Shown piece after piece: positions 27,111 through 62,123 of a stretch of 64,000 nt of DNA; position 1 is the stretch's first letter, and each line of letters begins with the position of its first letter. Both the position numbers and the translations under genes were made by a program. Under the pieces are notes generated by a model. The model had not been told where the DNA came from, did not search any database, and saw only the letters and a list, made by a program, of their open reading frames with translations. Origin of the DNA: Sanghuangporus weigelae. Its lineage: Eukaryota; Basidiomycota; Agaricomycetes; Hymenochaetales; Hymenochaetaceae. The DNA is taken from positions 1,054,001 to 1,118,000 of the forward strand of contig CP137330.1 in NCBI GenBank assembly GCA_033182465.1, given 5' to 3'.

Positions 27111-28121
27111 ATGGATACCTCTGAACATTCGGGATACCCTCATATCACTTCCGCAGATCAACATGCTAACAACTCAGTCTGTATGAGCGACTCGCTGTTT
27201 CCAACTTCTATCGCGATCTCGTCCATCATGGGCGGTCCAAACACCGCCGACGGACCTGCTGAAGGAGATTCTCTCAATCCTATGTCTTCCGACGAAGGAG
27301 CTTTGAACGTCGATGGCGTCTTGATCTATCTGGATTGTGTGAAGACTGTATTCTCCAGTAGTCCAGATGAATATAACAACCTCGAGGATATTTTAAAGGA
27401 TCTTCGACATCATAGGTAATGACCACACCCCTCGCTATATCACGCTACGTTCTTGACGGATAATACATATAGCGTCGATTTTCATGATGTTATTCAACGC
27501 GTGACGATCCTCTTCGCCGGATATCCCAGGCTGATCAAAGGATTTAATACGTTCTTACCTCCTGGATATCGAGTCACATATACAACGCCAAATTACAATG
27601 CAGGCACGAGCTCTGACTTTCTTTCTAATGCTGTGGTGAGCGATAGTCAAGGCGCAACAGGTCCGTATTCTTCTTCTTGGACGGCTAGTCGAGTAATCTC
27701 ACTTCTGCAATTTGTGAAGAACCTAGCTCGACTACAGAACTTCAAGCAGACAGTATGCAATATACAAGAGACATGATGCGTCATACAATGGAATATGTGA
27801 TGCAGGTTAAGCTGCGGTTCGCCTTCCGAGATGACTTGTATCAAGAATTCCTCAACATTCTCAGGGCAGTTCACGACCCGCCCGTTGATCAGGTAAAATA
27901 ATGTCGCTGATTTCTTCCGTGGCTTCGTACTCACATATACTCTTTACTTTCTTGATCAGAAGCATCTTTCGCTAAGGATAGCCGATCTTTTCCAAGGCTC
28001 ACCAGACCTCCTATCTGGCTTACAGTATTTCATTCCACGCGAGGTGGTCAATCTTGACACCATTGTTGTTGGAGAGAGGATCGGAAGCATGAATATACAT
28101 GGATCTGTTGAAGCTGATTGA
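27111..28121 (+). CDS. Small PAH1-PAH2 protein, Sin3 N-terminal paralog A
   Basis: Four exons (27111-27415, 27473-27660, 27738-27892, 27960-28121) give 269 aa with no stop or frameshift. The intron phases and positions are the same as in the first four exons of the full-length Sin3 gene 2.7 kb downstream. PAH1 reads GVLIYLDCVKTVFSSSPDEY then DVIQRVTILFAGYPRLIKGF and NTFLPPGY. PAH2 reads MEYVMQVKLRFAFRDDLYQE, then [20 protein letters not shown]. The message stops shortly after PAH2, so PAH3, the HDAC-interacting domain and the C-terminal region are absent. Full-length PAH domains bind short helices of transcription factors, so this protein could compete with Sin3; that is inference. It may be a recent tandem duplicate. 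Confidence 0.78.
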
Positions 28122-28642
28122 AGGGATCCATAGGGATCTATCGCGCGTTTTCGAGTGGGTCGATACCTGAAACAGATGAAGTCAAGATCACTATGTTCTT
28201 AATGCCTACTGAGGCACATCGTTCAACGAGTGCTACGTCTGAGCCACTTTTCACATTCGCTAAACATGGAACAGAAGTCTGTATCGCTATTTCATTTATC
28301 TGCCTAAACTTGCCTCAAACCTTTCTACAAGTATGAAGTGGGCTCGTTCGAAATCACTTACCTTTAGCTCTTCAATAAGAAATTTTGATACTCCGAAAAC
28401 AAGATTTCATGCTGGTCAAAAGATTTCGTCTTCTGAGTGTCGTCCAAATCGATTTCGAAGAAATTATGCTTCACGAATACGGTTGCGTCGATCTTCCTTT
28501 ACTGATCGACGATGCTCCTATCGCTTCGTAGCCACATCCTTTGTTGCTTACATGTTCCAACCTGTGCTCTCTGCAGCTGCGAAGAAACTTTCCAGATTTT
28601 CCGACCTGCTGAAGGACATAGTCGCAGTCACTACAGAGGTGC
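28122..28642. other. Spacer between the two small PAH genes
   Basis: Plus-strand ORFs here (28118-28336, 28333-28653) show no PAH motif. A phrase such as AAAKKLSRFSDLLKDIVAV is helical but unassigned. The stretch may hold the 3' UTR of paralog A and the promoter of paralog B. Confidence 0.35.
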
Positions 28643-29473
28643 ATGGCAAGTGACTCTCAAAGCAGAAGCACTTCCACCCAGGAGTTTGCTTCTTTCAGAG
28701 AAAGACCATTAGATGTCACAGACGCTTGTTCCTTCATGAATGCCGTGAAGGAGAAATTCGCTGACAAACCAGGTAACTACGATCAATTCCTCGACATAAT
28801 GACGCACTTCAAAAGTCAAAAGTGACGTTTGTACATGTTAGCGCAAACTGGTACGAGAGTCGTAACGAGACTGATGGAACAATGTTCTGTAGCATCGATA
28901 CCCTTGATGTAATCGAACGTGTCGTGGTGCTCCTTGCTGGGCATTCACACCTTATCAAAGGATTCAGTGCCTTCTTGCCTCCCAGATACCATCTCGAATG
29001 TTCCCCCAACGGAAAGGTGTTTTTATGGGAAACGCCGACTCCAGTTCTGAATAACGAAGGCTCGTGATTTGCAATAATCAAATCGGTCTGAGCATTAGGC
29101 TGATTTTCCCATACAGATGAACATCTACAAAGCACTACCGTGGAGATGGATGCTATAAAAGCATATGTGGGAAAAGTAAAGCTGCGTTTTGGCGGACGAG
29201 ATGATCTTTATCTCGACTTATGTGATATTCTCGATTCGTACGATCATCCTGGAGCCCAAGTCTCTTCGGTGTCACAGGTTGACTCACTCCCCGCAAAATC
29301 CATCTCAGGACCGGCGATCGAAGCGGATAGCAAAGCTTTTTCGAGGTTCTCCGGACCTTAAATCTGGCCTGCAACGGTTTTCTGCACGTGATATTTCCAA
29401 TGTTCTGAAAGGCTCGATTGCAGAAGAAAGGGCGATATTCATGAGCACTGATGAATCAGTCGAAGCTGCCTAA
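28643..29473 (+). CDS. Small PAH1-PAH2 protein, Sin3 N-terminal paralog B
   Basis: Four exons (28643-28821, 28893-29059, 29117-29259, 29309-29473) give 217 aa. PAH1 reads DACSFMNAVKEKFADKPGNY, then DVIERVVVLLAGHSHLIKGF and SAFLPPRY. PAH2 reads IKAYVGKVKLRFGGRDDLYL, then KRIAKLFRGSPDLKSGLQRF. Exon junction phases equal those of Sin3 and of paralog A. The second intron would start with GC instead of GT (29060-29061); the position is homologous to the GT donor of the other two genes, so this is either a GC-AG intron or a damaged donor. The N-terminal acidic leader of Sin3 is missing. If the donor fails, translation ends after PAH1. The gene is more diverged than paralog A. Confidence 0.65.
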
Positions 29474-29847
29474 AGAACATGCTGAAGGAATCAAGATTCG
29501 CTGGATTTACTTGCCTATGAGTCTATGACTCGGACGGATATCGGATTATATCATCAGGAATAAGCCACTACTAATACTTTAATATGTATACATAGAGTAT
29601 TTGGCATGAATGAATTGGATTGTATGCGCACGTTCTCTTGTTTCAAGTGCATTTATGTATTTTGAGCCTGCCCTCGTTTTTGTAAGTTCACGCCCATTCT
29701 CAAAATTGGAGTGCCAAGAGAAAAAGGTAATTAGAACTCACGATCACGAGAGCGTCGATCGCCATTAGTTGAGTCCGTCAAAACCTTGTTTGTTGCCTGT
29801 TCATGCCCCGAGTCCTGCTTTCAACTCTCTGCTAGCATCTGCACGTT

Positions 29848-32800
29848 ATGGAGGAAACGCGACCAGAAGAACCAGCCCTGAATGACCAGGCAGCGCCAGA
29901 CCAGCAAGCTGGACATCCTGCACCGACGAACGGCACTTTCCCAGCGGCTTCGGATCCGGCCACGGTGGACCAGGAAGAGCCGGCCAAAGCAGATGAATCT
30001 GCTGAGGATAGCGTAACTCGAGATGATGCGCCTGTCACGGAGGGAGAAGTAGAGAGCGGTGTGACAAAGGTGGAAAGGTTGCAGAGTGCGCCAGCTATGG
30101 AAGTCGACACGACTTCAACAGAGCTGGGTGGTGAAGTGACTATCAAGCACTCCCCTGCAGATGAGAACTGGCCAGAGGGCGCCCCCGCTTGGGATGAAAG
30201 TCCGTCATCGAGGCTGCCTGATCAGCAGGAATCAGAGCCTGTCGGCGAGAGGACGTTGAACGTCACCGATGCGCTGACCTATCTCGATTCTGTGAAGAGG
30301 CAGTTCTCAGATAGTCCGGGTGTCTATAACAGATTTCTGGACATAATGAAAGATTTCAAGAACCAAACGTAATGTATTGTTTGTTAGCGGATATGCTCTG
30401 AGACTAATGATATTTTTTGAAGCATCGATACCCCCGGTGTTATCCAACGCGTGTCAACTCTCTTCGCAGGATACCCACAGCTCATCGAAGGATTCAATAC
30501 CTTCCTTCCTGCTGGTTATCGTATAGAATGCTCTGTTGATGCACACGACACCAACATCATTACGGTCACCACACCTGATGGAACGACAACACACAGCCAA
30601 GGAATTGAAGGTTTGTCTATTCTAGCGCGCAATGCGTAAGATACCAACTGAATTGATTTACACAGTTTATGGGGGGCCTAGCTCTACTGCCTCAGTGATA
30701 GGAGATGGTCTGCAGTATACACATGAACAGATTTATCCAGCAATGGAGTACGTGACAAAAATAAAGCAGCGCTTCGCCGGACGCGATGACCTTTATCACG
30801 AGTTCATCGATATTCTGAACTCGTATAAGCGCCCACCCGTGGATCAGGTAAGCAGCCTCACTACCCCTGGCACCTTTCACGGTTCCGACTGACTACTTGA
30901 CTCACCACTATACTTCGACGCCATCACTCAGGATCAACTGGCAAGGAGGATATCCGACCTCTTCCAAGACGCGCCAGATCTCCTATCTGGGTTACAACAT
31001 TTCGTTCCGCGCGAAATGTTCAATGCACTCGACAGTTCTATCTCTGCAGAGAAGGATGTAAAGACAGGTAAGCTCGGAAAGAGGGGAGCTCTCGACTCTG
31101 CTTCCCTATCTGTGACTGCTACAGGTGGTCAGAAGAGGAAACGGAAAGCACCCACGCGCGAGAAGGACAGGGAGAGAGAGTCAGAGTTGGATGCATCATC
31201 GAAAGCAGCGGCAACCAAGGTCCGTATGTAGTAGTGCTTGTATTAGTCACTTTATTGAGAAATGTGCTCAGTCGAAGAGGATGAAGTACCACATCCACGA
31301 CACGCCATATGGGGAGGATATATCTCATTCACCACATTATTCTCATTCCCGCGCAGCACCACCTCCGCAGCAACGTGCTGCGACTGCGTACGACGAACAA
31401 CCACCTGTAATTCTGGATATGCCCTCCAGGGATGACATGGCATTCTTCGATCGGGCTCGACAATTAATCGACAATCGCGACGTCTATAATGAATTTCTGA
31501 AACTCATAAATCTCTTCACTCAGGGCTTTATTGACATGAGACGCCTCGTCGAACAGAGTCGAACATTCTTGGGCGACGAGCTTCTCGCTCAGTTCAAAGA
31601 AATTCTGGGATGGGATTCGAGCTGGGAGAGTGGAGGGCCTAGCCATGGTGAAGGCATGGAACGTCTGAGCAAAGAACACCTCAGTATTCGTTTCGGCCCA
31701 AGTTATAGGCGTTTGCCAGCAAGCGTGAGTGGAATCCTTTGATATGTGTCTGACGCTTTGGCTGATTGCGGGAACAGGAGGCAAACATGCCATGCTCGGG
31801 CAGAGATGAAATGTGCAAGAGTGTGCTCAATGATGAATGGGTGACGCATCCGACCTGGGCAAGTGAAGATTCAGGCTTTTTCACGCACCGGAAGAACGTC
31901 TATGAGGAAGCTCTCCATCGAACAGAAGAGGAGCGACACGAGTACGACTTCCACATTGAGGCTATCAGTCGTACGATAGTGGCACTGGAGCCATTCTATC
32001 TGAAAATCGTGCAACTGTCCCCTGAAGAGAGGGCCACGTCGAAGCAGAAGTTGCCTCTGTCGGGCGTAAATAAGGCGATACACCAGCGGATCATCAAGAA
32101 GATTTATGGACGTGAAGCAGGGCTCGAGGTTATCCAAGCCATGCACGATTCTCCAGCGATCGCGATACCTATCGTTTTCGAAAGACTCAAACAGAAGGAA
32201 CAGGAGTGGAAAAGAGCGCAACGAGAATGGAACAAAGTGTGGAGAGAGATCGAGAAAAGGAACTATCAGAAGTCACTAGATCACCAGGGTATCAACTTCA
32301 AAATGTCGGACAAGAAAACGATCACTGCAAAGACTTTTCTGAACCAGATCGAGTCGGCTCGAGAGGAACAGATATCGAGACGAGCATCTTTGATTGACCC
32401 CCTTTTCGCTCGCACGAGGCCTCGGTATCATCTAGCGTTCATGATAGAGGACACAGATGTCCTCGTGGACCTCTTAAAACTCACTTTCTCCCTTCTCGAT
32501 CGTATGCAACACCACATTAGTATATCGGACCGGAGGCGCATTGAAGGCTTCTTGCGTTCATTTATCCCTCTGTTCTTCACGTTCGACCCAGCTCCTTTTG
32601 ACGCAGCGTTCCGAACGCGAAACCAGCAGCTCGACCAGCAGTTCTTTTTAACGGATGACTTCACAAACTTTATCGATGAGATCGATGAGAATGCCTCCGC
32701 TACTGGGCCTTCCCGGACCGGGAGGAACGGGAGACGATCGGCCGGTAATGACCTTAGGAAGAGACTTCTGAAGACGAATGCGCACGATAAGAGTCGGAGG

Positions 32801-34262
32801 GCAGCCCAGACTACCCAGACTAATTCTGGATCTCGTTTGGCATCGCCTCTCCCAGGAAATTTAACATTGGGTGACGAATCTGCGGCCGCGGAACCTAATG
32901 GAATTGGAAATCCATTCCAGACACAGATTCCAGATCTTGCTGCAGCCGTGGCACCGTTGCAGCCTGGTCGCAGATGTGCATTCTTTACGAATGCTACTTT
33001 TTACAATTTACTGCGACTGATTGAGGTAAGCATAACTGGCATCTAACTTTTTAGGTAAGTTGAGGAAAAGCTCACACTGCTATGTAGCTTCTCTACACAC
33101 GTCTACTGTCGTGCAAAGATCTGGCAAACAGGCTCGCAAATGATCCGTCTTCCCCTTATCGTTCAAACCCTTTGGCTAACGACCTGGCATTGCTGGACAC
33201 GGAACCAGCTGATTCCAAGCTGGCCGAGTTAAAGAAGAGAGTGTCTCCTGCTGCACAATTTTATCCCTTCTTGCTTGAAACATGTGAACGTTTGTTCGAC
33301 AATTCTATTGACCAGCAGGCATTCGAAGATATTACTCGGCATATGTTTGGCACGAAGGTATGTTCAATTCGGTTGATGATTCGTTCATCTCACGGAATGT
33401 CCGTCTTGGCAGGCATATGTGACTTTCACGTTCGATAAAGTCATCGGCGCTATCATTAAACAAGTGAGTAGTTACGACGTTAACCTTCTTCGTCGGAAAA
33501 CTTACCAAATGTCTTGATAATCCAGGTACAAAGCATAATCTCGGACGGTAAGTCCCTTGTGCTTCTTGAAGGCCTCAAGCGGGAAAGGGAAATGGGTTCC
33601 CCTACAAGTTTGGATTTGGATGAAATTCGCGCAAACGCCGAAAGAGTTGTTGGCCCCGAAGAAAATCTCTTCCGAATTGACTGGGTTCGTTGGATCTTCC
33701 TAAGCACTGAAAGACTACTAACGAAAGTTCACCTCCAGACTCCGGCCTCCCGCACGATGACCTTCCAGCTGCTTGGGAAGGAAGATGCAAATTTTGACGA
33801 CGTCGATGTATATACCGGCCGATGGCAGGCATATATCGATTCATATGTATCGGTGAGCTACCTTCTGTGTGGTATTGAATGTAAAAATTTATCTACGATA
33901 GGATGAAACAACACGAGGACTTACTGACATCAGAATAAAGCCGCCATTCTTAAATCGGTGAGTAGTCCGTGTGTCACCGACTTTTTATATAGTCTATCTG
34001 ATTATTGTGGTGCGGTTCCAGTAATTACCGGGCGGTCAAGGAACACCCGTTGACGAATCCTTCAATGAGTCGAAGTGGGCTGGAGATCAAAGTCTGTGTA
34101 CGAACATATCGTATGTTCTTCGTCTCCAATACGCAAGATTTTCTTTGGCGAGCATGGGATACTCAAGAAGCAGAGGAAACATCTAAACGTTCAAGTCTCC
34201 GCTCCACAAGGAGCCAACGGTGGCTGAATCGATTTGATGAGGAAGAAGCCATTCCCCGATAG
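29848..34262 (+). CDS. SIN3: Sin3 histone-deacetylase corepressor scaffold
   Basis: Twelve exons (29848-30368, 30423-30610, 30666-30847, 30932-31067, 31125-31219, 31272-31724, 31778-33025, 33088-33357, 33413-33463, 33526-33852, 33902-33957, 34022-34262) join in phase to 1255 aa. Sin3 is the nuclear scaffold of the Rpd3/HDAC complexes. PAH1 starts near residue 135 ([20 protein letters not shown]), PAH2 near 245 ([20 protein letters not shown]), and PAH3 near 420 ([20 protein letters not shown]). The HDAC-interacting region follows ([48 protein letters not shown]). The Sin3 C-terminal domain follows ([20 protein letters not shown]). The first ~130 residues are Pro/Glu/Ala-rich. A basic KRKRKAP stretch between PAH2 and PAH3 is a likely nuclear signal. 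At 1255 aa it is close to fungal norms (yeast about 1536). Confidence 0.92.
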
Positions 34263-34655: not shown

Positions 34656-36651
<1,996 letters not shown>

Positions 36652-37009
36652 CTTTCCATACTCGCATGTTATAAACTGAATGGCCCGTATGTGATTGCAC
36701 GATAAAATAATCACTGCTTAGCTCGAGCAGCAAGGACAAAACATAAATGAGAACTGGGGTATTACATAATAGGGAGAATCATCCTGAGGGATCAAAAATA
36801 AAATATTACTGTATATGTATATGACACCGGCGACAACCCAAGATCCTTAATGCCACCTCTCACTTCTCGTGTCGTGAAAAACAGTCCAAACAGGACATCC
36901 GCTATATGATATTCTTGACAAATTGCGTATTTTCCCTTCGAGCACCGTCTAAATACCTGATATGTGATATCTGGATATCTGACGTCTTCCCTTTGTTTCT
37001 CGGCTGTAG

Positions 37010-37423
37010 TCGTCGGAATCGTGACAGTAGATACTATTGATGAAGCAGTCGAGCTCGCAAATGAGACAGATTACTCCTTGTCAGGCTCTGTTTGGATCAA
37101 AAACGTTAGTGTTGCTTTGGATGTGGCCTCCCGTATCCGTGCGAGTAAGTATTCTTCTCTTCTATTTCTCTTGTAAGGTCTGGTTAAGCCCAAATCAGGT
37201 ATGGTGAACATCAACGGAACCACCATTCACGCAGAGATCGAGATAGTAGCTGCTGGACTTGGGTAAGACGCTTCAAGCGCTTTAGAACATGTTTAATCGT
37301 GTTAACGTTGATTTTTACAGAGGTACTACTGGATACGGCCACTTTGATATTCAGCACTTTACGGTCGAACGAGCCATTGTCGTTCATCCCGAGCATGCTA
37401 AGTATCCCCTGGTGGATATGTAG
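37010..37423 (+). pseudogene. Duplicate of the last three ALDH exons (possible alternative 3' end)
   Basis: Three exons downstream of the ALDH stop repeat its terminal part. They encode VVGIVTVDTIDEAVELANET through SRIRAS, then NINGTTIHAEIEIVAAGLG, then GYGHFDIQHFTVERAIVVHP and a stop at 37421-37423. All reading frames are open, and the first acceptor (TGTAG at 37009) has the same phase as the acceptor at 36203. No start codon or upstream ALDH body belongs to this copy. It is either a truncated duplicate or a usable alternative set of last exons. Sequence differences are scattered and mostly conservative (for example VDTVDQAV against VDTIDEAV), which suggests selection on the protein rather than decay. 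Confidence 0.7.
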
Positions 37424-37677
37424 CTTCTTGAATGAAATGAAGGTGATTTTCCCGGAGAAAAATACGAGCGAGCAATAAATCGAAAGCGATCCCCAAAGCA
37501 CACTTTCTTATGATACATATGTACATACATGCTTGTATCCTGCTTTGCTTTGAGATAACATACAACCAGCTCCAGCCGAACGCCGAAGAGAAACCCTGCA
37601 ACGCACACATTACATATACGTATACTTGCTGCATTGTACACAATATCCGCACCTCGATTCGCCCAGACAAATCTCCT

Positions 37678-40344: not shown

Positions 40345-41171
40345 AGCACTTCTACCGACGGACATTGTCAACTCGAGCCAAGGTAGCAAAGATCAAACTA
40401 CACACCTGCTATTTTTGGAATCAGATTCTTTCTTTCAACGTGTTGCTCTCGGGACTGTCATCCTTGAAATGTGCTTTGATTGTATCGTCGCGGTTGATGC
40501 GGATTCCGGAAAGCTTTTGCTGCCGTCTCGACGACATGGTAGTTCTTGTCCGCGGTGTCGACGATTTTTTGCTGCGAAACTGGATAGCCCCAGTCCAAGC
40601 CCGCTCTCCTTCGATACAGGCTTTCCTGGGATATCTCCTTCTCTACTTTTCCTTGTCTTTCGTTATCGACTCCAGCCACGCAGTTCCTCTGTGCATCTGA
40701 ACAAGCCACTACCCTACGTGCTCTGTCTCCGCGTCTCCGCGGTTCATGTTCAATTTCTATGTCACATGTGCGGATCAACTCCGCCAATGATATTACTCTT
40801 GCGTGTGACTGTTACTTTAATAAAACAAGGTTTCTTGCTTCTGCGCTTATCGATGGTAAGATAGATTGATGGGATGGAGGAGAGCCACCGGATGCCTCGC
40901 CGGATTTGATCCCGCGCCGATCTGTCTGCCCAATTTGGAAACGGAAACAAAGAAAGACAGAAAGAAAGAGCGGCGAACAATGAAAAGCTAGCCACACTGG
41001 TCGCTTGAGGCAATATGAACTTGACCCACCGTGAAAGGTATAAAAGTGGGGTGGGAGCCGATAGTTGAGCTTTATGCCTGGTCAGTTTCTTGTCGAGTCT
41101 TTTGCTCCTCGCATTCCTCCAAACCCCGCCTCTGCGTTTATCCATTACTACAACCTTCGTCTCCCATAAAC

Positions 41172-41681
41172 ATGTCTGTCAGACTCGTCTTACCTCACGA
41201 TGCACCTGCGGAAGTGCGCAGACGATCGCAACCCGTGCGCGTTTCTACCGTGAGGGAACGGGTCGACTACCATGCCTCTCGCTTTCTCCTGTAAGCACAC
41301 TCACGTCCGGCCATGCCAGACCTAAAAGTCGCTCACGATTATTATAGCAAAAATAATAAAAGACTTTTAGGACAGAGGCCAGGACGCTCCGTGCCTCCGA
41401 AGGAATTGATGCGACAACGTCTGATCAAGAAAATTTTCGACGAGCTCCAAGGTATTTATACAACGCGAGTGGAAGACCTCATTCGCAATAAGGAACGCAT
41501 TGACCACCTTCGGCGCTGCGTAACGGCGCTGTGCATTTACAATGCACGAAAGAAGTCTGTGCTCGCCAATCTGCACATGATGGAGGACGTGGTTAGTGAG
41601 TTAGACGAACGAGAGGCTAAGGAACAGGAGATCCTCGAGGGTATACGAGAGGTCGCTCTGGAGATCCTTAGCCTGGATTGA
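41172..41681 (+). CDS. Tandem-array orphan gene, copy 1
   Basis: Two exons (41172-41290, 41348-41681) give 150 aa. I do not recognise the family. Exon 1 encodes MSVRLVLPHDAPAEVRRRSQ and a short amphipathic stretch ending HASRFLL. Exon 2 encodes a highly charged, predominantly helical protein: KRLLGQRPGRSVPPKELMRQ, then FDELQGIYTTRVEDLIRNKE, RIDHLRRCVTALCIYNARKK and a C-terminal EEx-rich helix ending ALEILSLD. Heptad-like Leu/Ile spacing suggests a coiled coil or helical bundle. There is no signal peptide, membrane segment or Cys pattern. It has its own TATA-like promoter block. The intron is 57 bp with GTAAGC and TATAG. Confidence 0.78.
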
Positions 41682-42224
41682 TCCTGATGCTATATGTCAA
41701 GGACGTTCTACAATAGAAGAACAGATGTCGAATTTTTTGTTTTGTTTCGTGGACATCTGTCAAATTGCAGGAGCGAGAAATGAAGCAATTTTGGAGGGAA
41801 TCGTCAACGCGAACACTGAATACAAAGGTTTTGCCCTCATCATTAGAAGCCTGGTCCTACGGAAGGAGCGCGCACTAACAATGTCAGATGACGCATATAA
41901 TTTGCACTTATCAATGGTTAGTAAATTGATGGGGCAGAGGAAAGCCACCAGATGCCTCGCGGGATTTTGGTCCTGCGGCCGATCTGTCCACCTAATTTGG
42001 AAACGGAAACAAAGAAAGACAGAAAGAAAGAGCGGCGAAAAATGAAAAGATTGGCCACGCCGGTCGCCTGGGGTGACATGAACCTGACCTCGCTGGGAGA
42101 AGGTATAAAGAGAGGGCTGGGTGGCGACAGCTGAACTTCAGGCTTGGTCAGTTTCTTGTTCCTCGCCTTTTCTAAACCTTTCTAAAGATCTCTTCCACTA
42201 CTACAATCTCTTATTCCCCTGAAC

Positions 42225-42734
42225 ATGTCAGTCAGACTTGTCTTACCCTGCGACGCATCTGCAGAAGTACGCAGACGATCGCAGCCCGTGCGCGTGTCGA
42301 CCGTGAGACAATGGGTCGACTACCATGCCTCTCGCTTCCTCCTGTAGGTACACTCACGTCCAGCTATACCGGACCTAAGAGTCGCTCACAATTATTATAG
42401 GAAAAACTATAAACGACTCTTAGGACAGACACCAGAACGCTTCGTGCCTCCTAAGGAGATGACACGACGACGAATTATTAAGGAACTTTTCGACGAGCTC
42501 TATGCCGTTTATACTGCGCGAGTCGAAGAACTCGTTCGCAATAAGGAACGCATTGACCACCTTCGACGCTGCGTGACAGCATTGTGCATTCGAAATGCAC
42601 GGAGGAGATCTGTCCTAGCAAATCTTCACATGTTGGAAGACGTCGTTCGCGAATTAGATGATCGGGAGGCTGCAGAACAGGAGATCCTCGAGGGTATACG
42701 GGAGGTCGCACTAGAAATCCTCAACTTGGATTGA
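42225..42734 (+). CDS. Tandem-array orphan gene, copy 2
   Basis: Two exons (42225-42343, 42401-42734) give 150 aa, the same length and intron position as copy 1. Differences are spread over the protein and mostly conservative (for example KELFDELYAVYTARVEELVR here, KIFDELQGIYTTRVEDLIR in copy 1). The frame is intact and the end is EILNLD. The promoter block includes GGTATAAAGAGAGGG. Retained reading frame despite many substitutions argues for selection on the protein. Function unknown. Confidence 0.78.
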
Positions 42735-43272
42735 TTCGTTGCCACATGTCGAGGGCACATAATAGAAGAATAGATTCCGACTTTTCGTGGACATCTGTTA
42801 GATTGCAGGAGAGAAAAATGAAGCAATTTCAATTTTAGGACTGCGTGAATCGTCAACTCGAATGCGTATATACATAAGGTTTTGCCCTCACCACGAGAAG
42901 CCTGGTCTGACGGAAGGGACGTGCACTAACAATGTCAGAAGACACGCATATAATCTGCGCTTATCGATGGTAAATAGATTGATGGGAACGAGGAGAGCCA
43001 CCAGGTGCCTCGCCGGATTTTATTCCGCGGCCGATCTGTCTGCCCAATTTGGAAACGGAAACAAAGAAAGACAGAAGGAAAGAGCGGCGAACAATGAAAA
43101 GATTGGCCACACCGACATGAGTTTGAACTCGCTAGGGGAAGGAATAAAGAGACGGGTGGATGGCGATAGTTGAACTTCAGGCTTGGTCAGTCTCTTGTTC
43201 CTCGCCTTTTTCCAATCCTCCCCTTCTGCGGTTACTCGCTTTCAATCCTCGTCTTACCACCTTTCTGCAAGT

Positions 43273-43772
43273 ATGTCCATTAGGCTTGTGTTGCCTCGCG
43301 ATGCCCCGGAAGAGGTGCGCAGACGCTCACAGCCCATGCTCCTCACTACTATGAGAGAATGGGCCGAGTTTCAGGTCTCTTGTTTTCTCCTGTAAGCACA
43401 CGAATGTCCGACTATGAAGGACTAAAAGTCGCTCACGATTATTATAGCAAATATCACAAACGACTCTTAGGACAGAGACCCGGACGCTTCGTGTCTCCTA
43501 AGGAGCTGATGCGACGATGTCTAATCAAGGATCAGTTTGACGAGCTCCAAGCCATTTACACAACGCGAGTTGAAGACCTCATTCGTATTAGGCTGCGTAT
43601 TGATCACCTTCGGCATTGCGTAACGGCGTTGTGCATTCACAATGCACGAAAGAAGTCTGTGCTCGCCAATCTGCACATGATGGAGGACGTGGTTAGGGAG
43701 TTAGACGCTAAGGAACAGGAGATCCTCGAGGGTATACGGGAGGTCGCTCTGGAGATCCTTAGCCTGGATTGA
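43273..43772 (+). CDS. Tandem-array orphan gene, copy 3
   Basis: Two exons (43273-43391, 43448-43772) give 147 aa. It has the same structure as copies 1 and 2, with a three-residue in-frame deletion near the C-terminal helix (RELDAKEQEILEG instead of ELDEREAKEQEILEG). The N-terminal exon is the most diverged part (TTMREWAEFQVSCFLL), while the core KSVLANLHMMEDVV is nearly identical to copy 1. The frame is intact, so it is probably expressed. Function unknown. Confidence 0.75.
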
Positions 43773-49735: not shown

Positions 49736-52700
49736 CTAGCATCGTATTTTCGTTACCATCATAGGCACGCCATCGGGAGCGTCCAGACGTTCCTCTGTAA
49801 TGGTCACATCCTGGTCCATCTGCACAACTCCAGCCTTTTTGTCCTGCGTCTCCTTATGAAGCTCTTCAGGACTGGGCGCTAGCTGCAATACGTCAGGTAC
49901 CGATTTAGCGGCCGGTATCGGATTCCCAGAAGGCGCTGATGCATCCGATATAGAACTTTCGTTCATGCGCTTTTCCCGAGGCCTGTCGACAGGTCCGGGC
50001 AAATCTACTCTTGGTCCAAGCTGTAAAACATCCGGGACTGGCTTGGCTTGAAACGCTACCTCCATCAATTCCACAGTAGAGTTGTCTCGGTCAATACTCG
50101 TTTTGTCCCTCTCGAGAAGTATATCTTTCCTTGGCCCAAGTTGGAGTACTGTCGACGCGTCTGCCGCAGTATTCTCCTGCCTCTCTATATGCGGTGATAC
50201 CTGGATGTCCGGCGTGTGTTGAGATACAAAGCACCCTGTTTCCTTAGGCGAAACAATTGATTTTATCGCGTTGGTCTCGGTCGTTATCCCGCCGTTTGCA
50301 ACAACGGGCTTTACGGGTGTCGGCACCGCAACCCGACTAGATCCTGGAGCTTTTGCTAAATCGGGTCTTGCAAGACTACCTGTCTGGGAGCTTCCGAAGC
50401 CGTTAGCCACGCTAGCACCCTGTGGAGGGCTTAAGGAGTGCATATGTGGTACTCCGTCGGCCTTCGTTGACCCTACAGGCGGTACGGGAGGAGTTCTCGG
50501 AAGGGACAAGGGCGAGACTGTTCTGGCTACATGCCTAGACGTGTGTGAAATAGGGACGAGAACGGGGCGAGGAAGTAGGTGCGGTAGCATCGATGGTGCT
50601 GGAACCACAAATGGTATGGATCTTTGGGAGCTGCCATTCTTCGGTGATGCAGATTTAGTAGGCACACCATCCTTGGACACTGGGAAACCATGCCGGACCA
50701 TATGGGGTGCATAAGGGGTACGATAGAAAGGCAGCGGAACGGTGGTGAAAGGCGCTGCCATAATCGGGGGCGAAGCCGAAACTGGCTTCTTCAAGTCCAC
50801 ATTAGCGGACGTAGATGATGTGTTTGCCTTCAAATCGGCTTTATTAGCACGCAATGCAGCCAAGGGAGTCGGAACAGACATTTTCGGAGCACTGGCAGCA
50901 TTCGGCGCACCGTTCGTGCTCGGGTTCTCTAAACGACTCATTGGAGGTTGATCTGACCCTAGCGATGTAGATATTTTCCCAGTAGAAGGTACGAGGTTGT
51001 CCACGTTAAACTGCTCATCGTCATCGTCGTCATCAGAAGTGACTATCTGTCCCCAGTCGACTGGCTTGAGTGGCGGAGGTTCGAAATTGACTTCCTTTTC
51101 CTCCAGACGCTTTCGAGCATTGTACGGCATGAGCTCTTCTGCTACATTCTCGACGACAGACAGCACTCCATTGGTTTCAGCTTCTGTATCATGCTTCTTT
51201 GCCCAGCTGCATGAAAGTAGAAAATAGCGAATAAAGATCAAGACAAAGCAGAAAAAAGACAAGGGATGAACATACCCTGTTCTTTGCTCGCAGATGCCCG
51301 CATGCTTCAGCCAATTCTGCGGACTGTATGAGACGTCACGGCGCATCTGGATCCAACGATCACACATTCTGCAGAGGATCTTTTCTGGATGCACTATCTT
51401 CGTTCGTGGGTCGCTCTCAAGTTCCTGCTTACGTTCTTCCTCTGTCCGGTGCATGCGTTTACTAGGATCTTGTATCTTCACTTCGTGCTGGGAGAGAGAC
51501 ATTGGCGCCGGACTATTTAGTCTTGAATTGCCCGTCCGCGCGCGAAGGGTAGGCAGGTTCAGCACAGGCGGAGGCTGCTTCGTCGATGCTGCTACAGTTG
51601 CAGGTGGAAGCTTCGGTTCAGTAGGATTACCGTAGTCTGTGGAGGAAACCGTCGGCTCAAACTTTCCGATAAGACGCCCAAGCTCGATGAAACCGAAGTG
51701 TCCCGAGGTCCCATCGTATTCGAGATCTATAACCTCTAAAGCACTGAGCTCAGGCGGCTCCTCCGTGTACTCGGGAGTTGCGCCTTGCCAGCTAATGAAA
51801 GAAACGGGCGTCAAGAGAAGGAACAACCTCAAGTGGATATCAGACGTGCCTTGCTTTTCCTTTACAACGCTGGGCGTGTCGCAACCAATTCCCTGGAAGA
51901 AACCCTGTAGCCATATTGAGCCTGATCCAACTATCGCACATCTTGCAGAAAACACGGCCCGGCTCCACACCGCCCAGCCGAGGGTCAGCACGTAAACGAG
52001 CTTCTCGCTCTTCGTCGGAAACCTTACGCTGACCATGATTATGAAGCACTGTATCAGTGGATTCTGGTTCCTTCTTAACAGCTGCAAATGAAGAAACCTC
52101 CTCGTCGGGCGGCACATCCAATTGGGTAAGCCTGATCATATAGACATTAGGAGATAAAGAACTCTCATATGAAAAACGCAGTACGTACCCATGTCGTTTC
52201 TCACATTTCCTCTTGTGCTTAAACCAGTTATACGGAACATAGTCTTTCCCGTCGCGTAGTTTGATCCACTGGTTACAGATATCGCATAGGACACGATGTG
52301 CCTCGACTGCAGTGACACGGGGATCATTGAGAAGAAGTGCACGTCGCCTGAGGACGGTGGAGTTTCCAGTTCTCTCGGTGTCAGAATCATCAATGACCAT
52401 AGATGATGGTTCTCGCTTCTCAACAGGAGGTGCGGACGTCTGCTCAACTGGTACTGCACTGTACGATCGTTCAGGAGATCAACTAGAGCTAAGTTTGATA
52501 GAGATAAGGACGAACTTTGGTTTTTCGGCACACTTCTTGATATGAGCAAACCAGTTGTGCGGATCATACTCGGTCTTGTTCTGAAGCTTGACCCATTTAT
52601 CACACACACCGCAGCGAGCCCGATGTTTCTCGATTACTTTGATACGTGGATCTGCTTGTATCCGTGCTAGTCGCTCCGCAGGGGTCGTTCGCTTGCGTGA

Positions 52701-55700
52701 CCCTCCGTCAGACGAAATGGAAGGCTCCTCGATGACCTTAACTTCTGGAACTTCTACCTCTTCTTCCTTTACGAAGATCGATTCCTGGGCGGTACCTTGA
52801 AACCTGAGACTATGGCGAAGGAGTAGGTTACGTGAGCTCAACGTTAAAGACTAACAGATCTATCGCATGCACTCACTTCGTACGGATCAAACATCTTTCA
52901 ATATGCTTGTACCAATTATATGGTGCATATTCCATGAACTCGTTCAGCTTCAACCAATGTTGACACAATCTGCACCTGATACGATTCGGCTCCACTGCTT
53001 CGACGCGACTGTCTGCAAGAAGTTTCGCTCTTCGCTCCGCAGGAGTGCTCTTCGGTGGTTTGTTTACATGCGGAGGTGCGGAGACAATAAGTTGAACTTC
53101 TTCATCCCGGTTCGGCACTGCTTCGTCGACTGCGACTTTCGTACCATCGCTTACACCATCATCAGGTAACACTTGAGTAGAGGTGGATTGCTCTGTCGAA
53201 ACGGCAGCAGGTCCCGAGGCATCATTAACAGTAAGCGGTTTGATAGACCATGTCGAAGATCTGGGAAAACGAATGAACATAATATACTGACGAGGGATTT
53301 GCCAACTCACTTCCCAGCGACCTTATCACAGCTCGCAATATGTTTATACCAGTTCGAGAGTGAATAGTCTTTCTTCACGTGAAGGCCAACAACACGCTGG
53401 CAGAGCTTGCAAGTGACGCGTTGCGGCTCAATATTCTGACACCGACCGTCTCTCTCAAGAATGGTGCGACGTTCCTCGACTGAAGTCTCATCCTTTAATT
53501 TAGCAGAGGACGAAAATGCCGGCGGAGCAGTTAGGGGAACGGGGACCGATGGCCCTGAGGGTGGTCTATCTTCAACCTCTTCAGCCTTGATGGAACGCAG
53601 CGATCGGTTGGACTCAGATGGTTGAGCTCGAAGTCTCGTCAGTCGTGAAGAACCGTCATCCGTACCTCTGTCAAGCAAACAAGTTGTGTAAGGACAGCGT
53701 ATTGAGCTTCTAGATGGTAAATGTATTAACTTACGAATGACGTTGCTCACAAAGCGGGACGTGTTTTCTCCAATTCCAGATATCATAGTTTCGGTACAAC
53801 TGAAGTTTGATCCACTGTTTGCAAATGCGACAGAGCACCTGCTGTGGTTCGATAGCTTCAATTCGTGAGTCTGCCTGTAGATCACGCAGGCGTTCTTCAT
53901 CAGTTTTCATTGGTGATCGCTTCCCTAGCGAACTAGAAGACGCGGAGTTCGGGGCCAGCGCAACCGACCCATGCGCTTTCGGAGAGCTGGAACGACACAA
54001 TTATCATTTGAAAATAAGAGCTAAGTGGTAAGAGGAGATCACTCACGGTTTGGCTGCAACACGTAAACTACACCTCTCAGCGTGACGAATCCAGTTCGAC
54101 TCAACATATTCGACCTCCTTGTAAAGCTTGATCCACTTCTTGCACATATTACAAAACACCTCGTTCGGCAGAACCTGGCCGGCGCGTGTGTCGCTAAGGA
54201 GAGCTTGCTTCCGTTCCTCGGTAGTGCGTCCCTTTCGCCGTTTCATGCTTGTGGAAGCCGACCCGGATACTTCGTCATCTTCAACTTTCAATCCAGGTGG
54301 AGAATAGAACAAAAATTGATCTGAACCGCCAGGTTCAGGCTTGATCAAATCGATAACTTGACTAAGGCTAGTTCTAGAGTCCCTTGGATTGACATGTCAA
54401 ATCATTGGAAGTGACATAATACATACCTTTTCTGACTGCGCTTAGTGGAAGCAGAATCTCCAGCCATATCTGATACATGCTCAGAACGGTCTATCGACAG
54501 GTCTCTTTGCTCACATCGTGTCTCAGCTGCACGAGCTTTACCGAAGGATCGAGGTTTCGCTGAATGATCCGTTTCAGAAATTGCTGACACTGTGCGCCTC
54601 GATGCAAGATGCGACTCCGGTCGTAGCGTTTGCGAGATCGATATGCGCCTTCGAAGTTCACGAGCCCCTTGAGTAGATGGCTTACCAGACTGATATCCAG
54701 ATACGTTTCAGATAATAAGATTTTTGGAATGGATGAGAACTTACGTTAGGTGTACTGGAGCTCTCTCCGTTTTCCGGCCGGGATGACTGGTCAAAGAAGC
54801 TAGTACCTTCTCCAGGAGGTCCAGAGTCTGTATTTGAATCCTGAGCTCCGGCGGATTCAACCTTTACCCATCCGTTCCTAACTTCGCACTTTTCTGCATG
54901 CCGTAGCCAATTCCAAAGATCGTACTCCCGCGTGTTATGGAGTCTTACCCACTGTCCGCACATTTTACATAGTACAGAATGAGGTCCAGAATCCTCGCAA
55001 CGCACGTCGTTTTCGAGCTCGCGTCGTCGATCGTCAGTGGTCTTCGTTACTCGCTTTTGAGGAAGAAGCATGGCATCGACTTCCAATGGCTCGTTAGGGT
55101 CATCATCGGACATGTCGTCGTTATCATATTGAACATCCTCCGCAGGATCGGATGCACGAGTCGTTGAAATGGACACGGCAGGTGCAGCAGGCGCCGAAAT
55201 CGATTCTGGCGCCGGAAGCGGGCGATCGGGGTTAACCGAAGGGATCGTCAGAGTGAACGCTACCCCCGGGTCTGCTCGTATACGGGCCCTCCATCTATTG
55301 TAAAGTGGTTGATATAGTTCAGTAATCAGTGTCCGATCAAGAGTATAATAGTAAACTCGCCCTGAACGAGATTCGCATTTCTCAGCATGTGTCCTCCAAT
55401 TTGCAGGCGAGAAATCAGTGTGTTTGAAAAGCTTCACCCAGTGTCCGCACATCCTACAAAGCACCTGCTGTGGTTCAACCGCACTTATTCGATCGTCATT
55501 AAGGAGAACCAAAGCCCTCTCCTCTATCGTAGACTTGCTCTTGCGCCCACCCCTACCATGCCTCTTCTGCGATAACAATCGGCCCTCCTCAATTGAACTA
55601 CGAGAGTAAGAAAGTTTAAGACTCCAGTACACACATCCTTCATGAATTAATGGAACTCACTCTTCCTCTAGTTTAATCTTTTTCGATGGAGGCTGCTGAG

Positions 55701-60759: not shown

Positions 60760-61089
60760 AGCCACGCATCGCACGTCCTTTCTTTTCATCTCTTAATTTT
60801 CTTCCTCTTCAAAAGGATTGTCTGCACTGTTTTTTCTTGCTGTACACTAATACCCCTAATCTCTCGCACTGCTTATGTCCGAGTCGACAATGCTGTCTTA
60901 CATTAGAGCTACTCCTCCGCCTGCTGTTCGGTCCCATTTGTACTGGTATTTATTCGCACTTTCTCACATATTGTCTTGGTACCTGTCTGCATTTCTAATA
61001 CTGGTTTTCGCTTTATCGCTATCTGTATTGGATTGCATGTCCTGTATTCCGTATTTAATTGTATCGCGCTTGTCCTCATAAAATATCGC
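60760..61089. other. 3' flank of the TF gene up to the LINE 5' end
   Basis: AT-rich, non-coding sequence. The transition to the GC-rich LINE coding sequence lies near 61090, but no clean junction could be fixed. Confidence 0.4.
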
Positions 61090-62123
61090 TTGGTGTGAAG
61101 CTTGGTTTGCCTGCCTCTGAAGGCCGAATGGACGCGACGCGTGCTCGTGGTGCCCTTTCCCTCTTCGATGACGACGACGATACATTCATCCTCGCCTACG
61201 TCGACGACCATCTCCTTGTTGTTCAGTCTACCTCCTTTGACACGAATAACGAACTTCTTCTCCGGGCTTTTAACCGCCTGTCCTCCTTCTTGTCCTCTGT
61301 GGGCCTTTCTTTGGACGCTGCTAAGACCGAACTTATACACTTCGGCCGAGGCGGTTTGTCCGGGCCTTCTCTTACTCTCCCCCTCACCCCCCCCCTTGTT
61401 CTCCGTCCCCTCCGGGCCATCCGTTGGCTCGGTATTTGGTGGGAGCCCAGTTTGACGTGGAAGGAGCACACATCCCGAATGCGATGTAAAGCATCCTCGG
61501 CTCTATGTGCCCTACGCCTCCTGGCAAACACCTATCGCGGTCTCTCCCCCATCCTCATACGCCGGCTTATTGTTGGTGTTGTGCGCCCTATACTCCTTTG
61601 GGGGGCTCCGGTTTGGTACACTGGGGTCTCCCAAGCTACTATCCTCAAGCGGCTCCAGAGCGTCCTCGACGCTTCCGCTCGCTTTCTTCTGGGGGTTTTC
61701 AAAGGGGCCTCTGCCCCGGCCCTCCGTTTCTTTTCTTCTCTTATGCCACTCTCTGCTTATCTTCCTAAGCTCAAAGCCTTTGCGGCGTATCGCCGACTCA
61801 CCCTCCCAAACCCACCTCGTCGGAAATTCACTTCTGATGGGCCGAAGTCCTGTTTTTCTAAAAGTTTCACTGACCCCTTTCCCTGGCTGCCAGCAGAAAC
61901 CCTACCCCGCTCCGTGTGCCCCCCATGGTCCTCTGTGAGCTCCCCCTCGCCTCGGATGGTTTTCCACCTCCCCGGCAACGCTAAGGCCGCCAGAAAGGAC
62001 ACCGTGGCTACTATCAACGCCACTGCATACCCCAACAACCCGGCCCACTTATCCGTCTTTACTGACGGGTCCGCCACTCTCCTCCCGAACCTGCGCTACA
62101 GCACGGTGTAGTGCGCCGCACTT

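Follow-up and report, generated by a model that had tools for sequence, protein, structure and literature searches.

Short PAH1-PAH2 genes derived from SIN3 in Sanghuangporus weigelae and their possible role as deacetylase-free competitors

Why should a full-length SIN3 gene be preceded by two small genes that resemble its own beginning? Such an arrangement occurs in a stretch of 64,000 nucleotides from the medicinal bracket fungus Sanghuangporus weigelae (GenBank assembly GCA_033182465.1, contig CP137330.1, positions 1,054,001 to 1,118,000; in the following "the window"), where two short genes, copy A and copy B, lie on the forward strand immediately 5' of the full-length SIN3 (SIN3a) and in the same orientation, as stated in a first-pass annotation made from the sequence alone. 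That annotation regarded both as SIN3 duplicates reduced to the PAH1 and PAH2 modules and proposed that their products might compete with the complex of Sin3 and histone deacetylase (HDAC). According to the sections of PMC7948954 consulted, PAH1 and PAH2 offer transcription factors a cleft, bordered by helices 1 and 2, into which these dock an amphipathic helix; Mad1 is bound better by a PAH1-PAH2 fragment than by single domains. The reading that we favour, and to which we give slightly less than an even chance, is that copy A is a functional gene peculiar to its lineage whose product would act as an HDAC-less competitor of SIN3, binding mainly via PAH2.

Copy A, copy B and the 5' part of SIN3 have three introns in common, at the same positions and in the same phases (2, 1, 0), as had been noticed before, and the DNA of the region aligns to SIN3 in six pieces of 68-81% identity. 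For membership of the PAH family (Pfam PF02671), a profile match had to exceed 21.3 bits, the curated cut-off. The public copy A protein scores 75.7 bits (E = 2.3e-21) in two stretches and the copy B model 63.8 bits (E = 1.1e-17) with one stretch, PAH1, passing alone; as sequence matches both are far beyond chance. The PAH2 of copy B lies below the Pfam threshold on its own and is recognised through alignment to SIN3. Neither copy has a Pfam match to PAH3, to the HDAC-interaction domain (HID, Sin3_corepress) or to Sin3a_C, whereas SIN3a possesses three PAH stretches together with Sin3_corepress and Sin3a_C, and the latter two also occur in its paralog SIN3b. Judging from the introns and the tree presented below, copies A and B descend from Sin3, and the Pfam matches agree with the proposed loss of everything past PAH2. 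They thus resemble the full-length Sin3/Pst family (Pfam PAH, Sin3_corepress, Sin3a_C) in the origin of their sequence, in their PAH modules and in where their introns lie, but by domain content neither is a Sin3 corepressor scaffold, as both are devoid of HID and Sin3a_C.

Translated from its first ATG, our model of copy A (27111-28121) has 275 amino acids (aa). In the public S. weigelae model, ACEPAI_2930, the start lies 24 residues further on (251 aa); its protein is 99.6% identical to residues 25-275 of ours, with one difference over 251 residues. Copy B (28643-29473) is modelled with 217 aa. The exons, previously described as open with 269 and 217 aa, are indeed open in copy A, at the lengths just given, while those of copy B are so only if its intron 2 uses a GC donor. 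SIN3a itself is 93.9% identical to S. vaninii ACEPAH_2092 over 1256 aligned residues. The close succession of copies A, B and SIN3a on one strand within 7.2 kb might suggest that one of the two copies is a mis-split gene or serves SIN3a as an alternative 5' part; we consider such an artefact highly improbable, given that each copy possesses a start, a PAH pair and an in-frame stop of its own, that SIN3a has its own PAH1-PAH2, and that the public annotation of S. vaninii tags A and SIN3a separately.

The evidence for a functional copy A comes from its conservation. A search with copy A returned seven proteins among 641 candidates, four of which are copy A itself, from S. weigelae, S. vaninii, S. 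baumii and S. sanghuang, while the three others carry a PAH domain; the annotated orthologs of the three other species are open. In column counts across the four species (at the protein level, with the window copy standing for S. weigelae), variable columns number 18/39 in the N-terminus, 23/75 in PAH1, 19/39 in the linker, 7/74 in PAH2 and 4/24 in the tail. PAH2 and tail taken together thus vary in 11 of 98 columns versus 60 of 153 elsewhere (Fisher p = 8e-7). In a neutral simulation at the lowest overall divergence (38 differences), six or fewer changes in PAH2 plus tail occurred with P = 0.0016. The same simulation yielded zero stops in one lineage with P = 0.24, and the open frame of copy A alone therefore proves little. 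The dN/dS (nonsynonymous to synonymous substitution rate) of copy A versus SIN3a, 0.28 at a dS of 1.8, is not used as evidence. On this pattern of conservation, copy A is a maintained gene whose protein product selection seems to have kept.

Several observations weigh against the favoured reading. PAH1 is only weakly constrained relative to N-terminus and linker (p = 0.047), and of the 50 PAH1 positions with a conservation of 90% or more among 34 Sin3 rows, the A proteins have lost 14-19 (and keep 31-36). The losses include helix 2 of the docking groove, which reads LEDIL in all four species versus FLDIM in SIN3; copy A therefore cannot simply mimic the PAH1 of SIN3, and the earlier description of both modules as intact was too strong for it. 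Copy A also evolves much faster than SIN3a: between S. weigelae and S. vaninii, identity is 87.7% from PAH1 to the end of copy A (212 positions) and 99.5% in PAH1-PAH2 of SIN3a (202 positions). Of its donors (5.2, 7.0 and 3.7 bits) the third scores under all 15 reference donors (10 from SIN3a, 5 from SIN3b; 4.6-10.3 bits). The upstream flanks are at most suggestive of promoter sharing between A and SIN3a, on which we do not rely (shuffles reaching the score, of 500: A/SIN3a 14, B/SIN3a 50, A/B 467). Finally, for the mammalian isoform SIN3B(293), discussed below, the consulted part of PMC5902990 reports continued repression of basal transcription along with possible competition for partners, so a missing HID need not mean antagonism.

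The altered PAH1 would also fit a neo-functionalised adaptor, i.e. a real protein that no longer competes and whose rewritten PAH1, conserved PAH2 and tail bind partners of their own. At twelve of the 50 conserved PAH1 positions every one of the four A proteins departs from Sin3, in nine cases with the same residue throughout, and the little-varying tail resembles that of copy B (score reached in 6 of 5000 shuffles). We nevertheless rate this alternative as rather unlikely, as PAH2, the most constrained part, retains 12-14 of 16 Sin3 positions, and the tails are also, more weakly, similar to SIN3a (A 160, B 52 of 5000 shuffles), so that part of the tail may be a plain SIN3 remnant. From this sequence evidence, competition, adaptor function and weak repression by copy A are indistinguishable.

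Copy B has a different standing. It is distinguished by the GC donor of intron 2 and by the -0.4 bits at intron 3 (Table 1); retention of intron 2 would end the frame just past PAH1. A profile search headed by copy B contained no ortholog of it among the 120 listed of 473 matches, and the S. vaninii tags of copy A and SIN3a are consecutive, so that nothing is annotated between them. These features could be expected from birth-and-death debris, in which partial SIN3 duplicates arise frequently and then decay, with open frames left over from recent function or by luck. An open frame can indeed persist by chance for some time: copy B would stay without a stop with a probability of 0.19 at a neutral divergence of 9% and of 0.06 at 15%, next to the 0.24 obtained for A. 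However, its divergence from SIN3a is far beyond 15% (proportions of nonsynonymous and synonymous differences, pN 0.33 and pS 0.79; dN/dS is saturated and not used as evidence), and copy B was therefore probably constrained through most of its life. Weak donors as proof of its decay were likewise weakened as an argument, as copies A, c2, c3, c4 and c5 (the last four from the array described below) also have donors below the reference minimum: c2 3.1 and 4.9, c3 4.4, c4 2.6 and 4.9, c5 2.9 and 2.4 bits. Both c2 and c4 are publicly annotated despite such values, and a low score by itself is therefore no verdict against copy B. For copy A, decay is already improbable in view of its uneven, PAH2-centred constraint across four species, and as an overall explanation we regard debris as unlikely. 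The former argument that the frames speak against simple decay consequently stands for copy A, with its open orthologs and constrained PAH2, and is not settled for copy B, which on its sequence is doubtful as a gene and whose open frames are compatible with recent decay. It is likely a sibling of copy A, possibly decaying or poorly spliced.

PAH-only genes in the S. weigelae genome are not confined to copies A and B. Searching the same genome for the PAH family gave 12 matches, four on the contig of the window and eight on contig 1, where a second, ancient Sin3 paralog (SIN3b) is located. Its public protein (ACEPAI_109, P0126; 1351 aa) contains PAH, Sin3_corepress and Sin3a_C; the full domain set was read from this protein, as our own SIN3b model ends before the C-terminal end. 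About 12 kb from the PAH region of SIN3b, in opposite orientation, lies an array of about five PAH-only copies (c1-c5). Intron 2 of SIN3a is absent from SIN3b, c2, c4 and c5. The array displays traces of both decay and maintenance: c3 and c5 are defective or lack a visible start (Table 1) and the c4 protein of S. sanghuang has lost part of PAH2, as debris would predict, but c2 versus c4 gives a dN/dS of 0.37 at dS 0.73, and S. baumii has both the c2 and the c4 protein. Flanking sequence is shared with SIN3b only in c4 and perhaps in c5, judging by shuffles (of 200) that reach the score: c4 0, c5 2, c3 29, c2 105, c1 137. Variation within the species seems uneven, the c4 protein differing from its public S. 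weigelae counterpart at 8 of 218 residues and copy A at 1 of 251.

The number of origins was addressed with a tree of 58 rows and 143 columns covering PAH1 and PAH2. It comprises 34 full-length Sin3 rows (SIN3a, SIN3b and 32 chosen from 120 listed) and 24 PAH-only rows (A, B, c2-c5 and 18 chosen from the searches with copies A and B); omitted were c1, P0001 and P0011 (which represent the genes A and c2), P0092 with its 98 aa, and other matches. The two Sin3 types form two clades, and eight further species in the tree carry both. This PAH phylogeny, of a kind that the first-pass annotation had suggested as a check, groups copies A and B with Sanghuangporus SIN3a (ultrafast bootstrap, UFBoot, 99; Shimodaira-Hasegawa-like approximate likelihood ratio test, SH-aLRT, 81), and the array with Hymenochaetales SIN3b (99), joined by two Schizopora paradoxa proteins that are listed on contigs of agreeing length (node 78). 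A single origin for A/B and the array was rejected (approximately unbiased test, AU, ~1e-38; Shimodaira-Hasegawa test, SH, 0.0004; 14 rows), as was one for all 24 PAH-only rows (AU ~1e-94), where the constrained trees stem from a fast search and AU values this tiny are extrapolations. PAH-only genes were thus born at least twice in the S. weigelae genome. Other points are less sharply defined: for A/B, an origin after the Fomitiporia split has a rival in a placement outside, which is not rejected (AU 0.44), and the array inside versus outside the Hymenochaetaceae SIN3b proteins gives AU 0.12. Copies A and B, both on long branches, appear as sisters (UFBoot 98) and the likeness of their tails fits one truncated ancestor, yet a tree separating them is not rejected (AU 0.13).

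Comparable short PAH proteins are found, as far as sequence similarity tells, in other Agaricomycetes. Those of Pholiota, Mycena, Moniliophthora, Armillaria and Rhodonia form long branches within the second Sin3 type and suggest further births with weak support. The branch of the Lanmaoa PAH-only protein is very short and PAH2 is cut off in that of Hericium, which would fit truncated gene models in both cases; the Rhodonia model carries an insertion within PAH1, and Lenzites and Trametes form a pair whose long branch is doubtful. None of the Lanmaoa, Hericium, Rhodonia and Lenzites/Trametes proteins is counted as a proven birth.

Table 1. Gene models at the SIN3a locus (window coordinates) and members of the contig 1 array
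Feature	Position	Strand	Description
Copy A exon 1	27111..27415	+	N-terminal region and PAH1 start; gene model
Copy A exon 2	27473..27660	+	PAH1 remainder, linker; intron 1 phase 2 as in SIN3
Copy A exon 3	27720..27892	+	first half of PAH2; intron 2 phase 1 as in SIN3
Copy A exon 4	27960..28121 including stop	+	second half of PAH2 and tail departing from SIN3; intron 3 phase 0 as in SIN3
Copy B exon 1	28643..28821	+	PAH1 start; donor GTGACG, 1.7 bits
Copy B exon 2	28893..29059	+	PAH1 remainder; then GC donor GCTCGT, 2.6 bits; read-through ends at 29067
Copy B exon 3	29117..29259	+	PAH2-like, first half; donor GTCTCT, -0.4 bits
Copy B exon 4	29309..29473 including stop	+	PAH2-like, second half; tail resembles that of copy A
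SIN3a (full-length SIN3)	29848..34262	+	11 exons, 1274 aa; PAH1-3, HDAC-interaction domain (Sin3_corepress), Sin3a_C
c1	L009 1753-2107 (contig 1)		PAH2 alone, 89 aa; strong donor, 10.9 bits; smallest open array member
c2	contig 1		PAH1-PAH2; public tag ACEPAI_106, modelled without last exon
c3	contig 1		PAH2 broken
c4	L009 4937-5709 (contig 1)		PAH1-PAH2; public tag ACEPAI_107
c5	contig 1		no ATG ahead of PAH1 in open frame; upstream exon possible

Downstream of SIN3 lies a gene that by eye appears to encode an aldehyde dehydrogenase. Two of its 3' pieces are each present twice (36202-36654 and 37008-37426; 75% and 79% identity), which constitutes another partial tandem duplicate nearby. In Phellinidium pouzarii, a model (P0132) fuses Sin3 to an aldehyde dehydrogenase domain, and the SIN3 neighbourhood therefore looks conserved. 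Further along the window, 40861-43498 holds a tandem unit of ~1.05 kb with at least three repeats (72-91% identity in pieces; scan to 43500). Long frames on the minus strand share the cysteine/histidine motif C(R/K)MC..W...NW..HA..CE, once at 49736-52135 and twice at 54682-55656, and an open frame at 61059-62111 resembles a retroelement reverse transcriptase / RNase H (both by eye).

How could copy A act as a competitor of SIN3? From its position, orientation and introns, it would have arisen by partial tandem duplication of the 5' part of SIN3a (exons 1-4). If expressed, it would yield a protein of only about 27-30 kDa that carries two PAH modules but no HID and most likely enters the nucleus and there, mainly through the conserved PAH2, may bind the amphipathic helices by which transcription factors recruit SIN3. 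Being unable to bring a histone deacetylase, it would occupy those factors and thereby lower or re-route SIN3 action. A separate birth of the same kind took place from SIN3b on contig 1, and for these PAH-only genes a role as HDAC-less competitors is plausible. MicroProteins are small interference proteins derived from multidomain regulators; copy A is similarly small, probably derived by duplication and domain loss, and keeps an interaction domain, but it has two domains rather than one and interference is only proposed for it. Two PAH-repeat proteins of Capsella rubella (229 and 232 aa; one "Sin3-like 6") are likewise short and came from the same profile search; they belong to the plant lineage, outside our tree, and no common origin is claimed.

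The nearest known product, in the literature as we saw it, is mammalian SIN3B(293) (SIN3BSF), a short SIN3B splice isoform that, in the portion of PMC5902990 available to us, is described as having PAH1-PAH2 only, a unique 19-residue end and no HDAC interaction. Copy A, which would be its gene-encoded counterpart, has the same two modules without HID, a similar length (293 aa there) and, past PAH2, 24 residues that may form an end of its own. In contrast to this alternative-splicing product, copy A is a separate gene model upstream of SIN3a, in which PAH1 is rewritten and whose sequence has a history of its own. BRAKER3 produced the public annotations from which these proteins probably come; as the methods section of PMC12001456 names no RNA-seq, we do not take them as expression evidence. 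A literature search (titles and abstract starts, few subscription journals) found nothing on fungal PAH-only genes, which is not a claim of their absence from print.

More broadly, and tentatively, Agaricomycetes may repeatedly draw on the 5' end of one or the other Sin3 paralog to make PAH-only genes that serve Sin3 as tunable regulators without an HDAC, with copies born, re-specified (as in the PAH1 of copy A) and lost by lineage. As part of the same tentative reading, gene birth in these fungi might do what mammals achieve by splicing SIN3B(293). If so, mushrooms would have evolved a gene-encoded brake or re-router of a core histone-deacetylase complex more than once. They would then offer a natural test of Sin3 without its deacetylase arm, a question that is open for mammalian SIN3B(293), and the contig 1 array may present, within one genome, copies at differing stages of birth, re-specification and loss.
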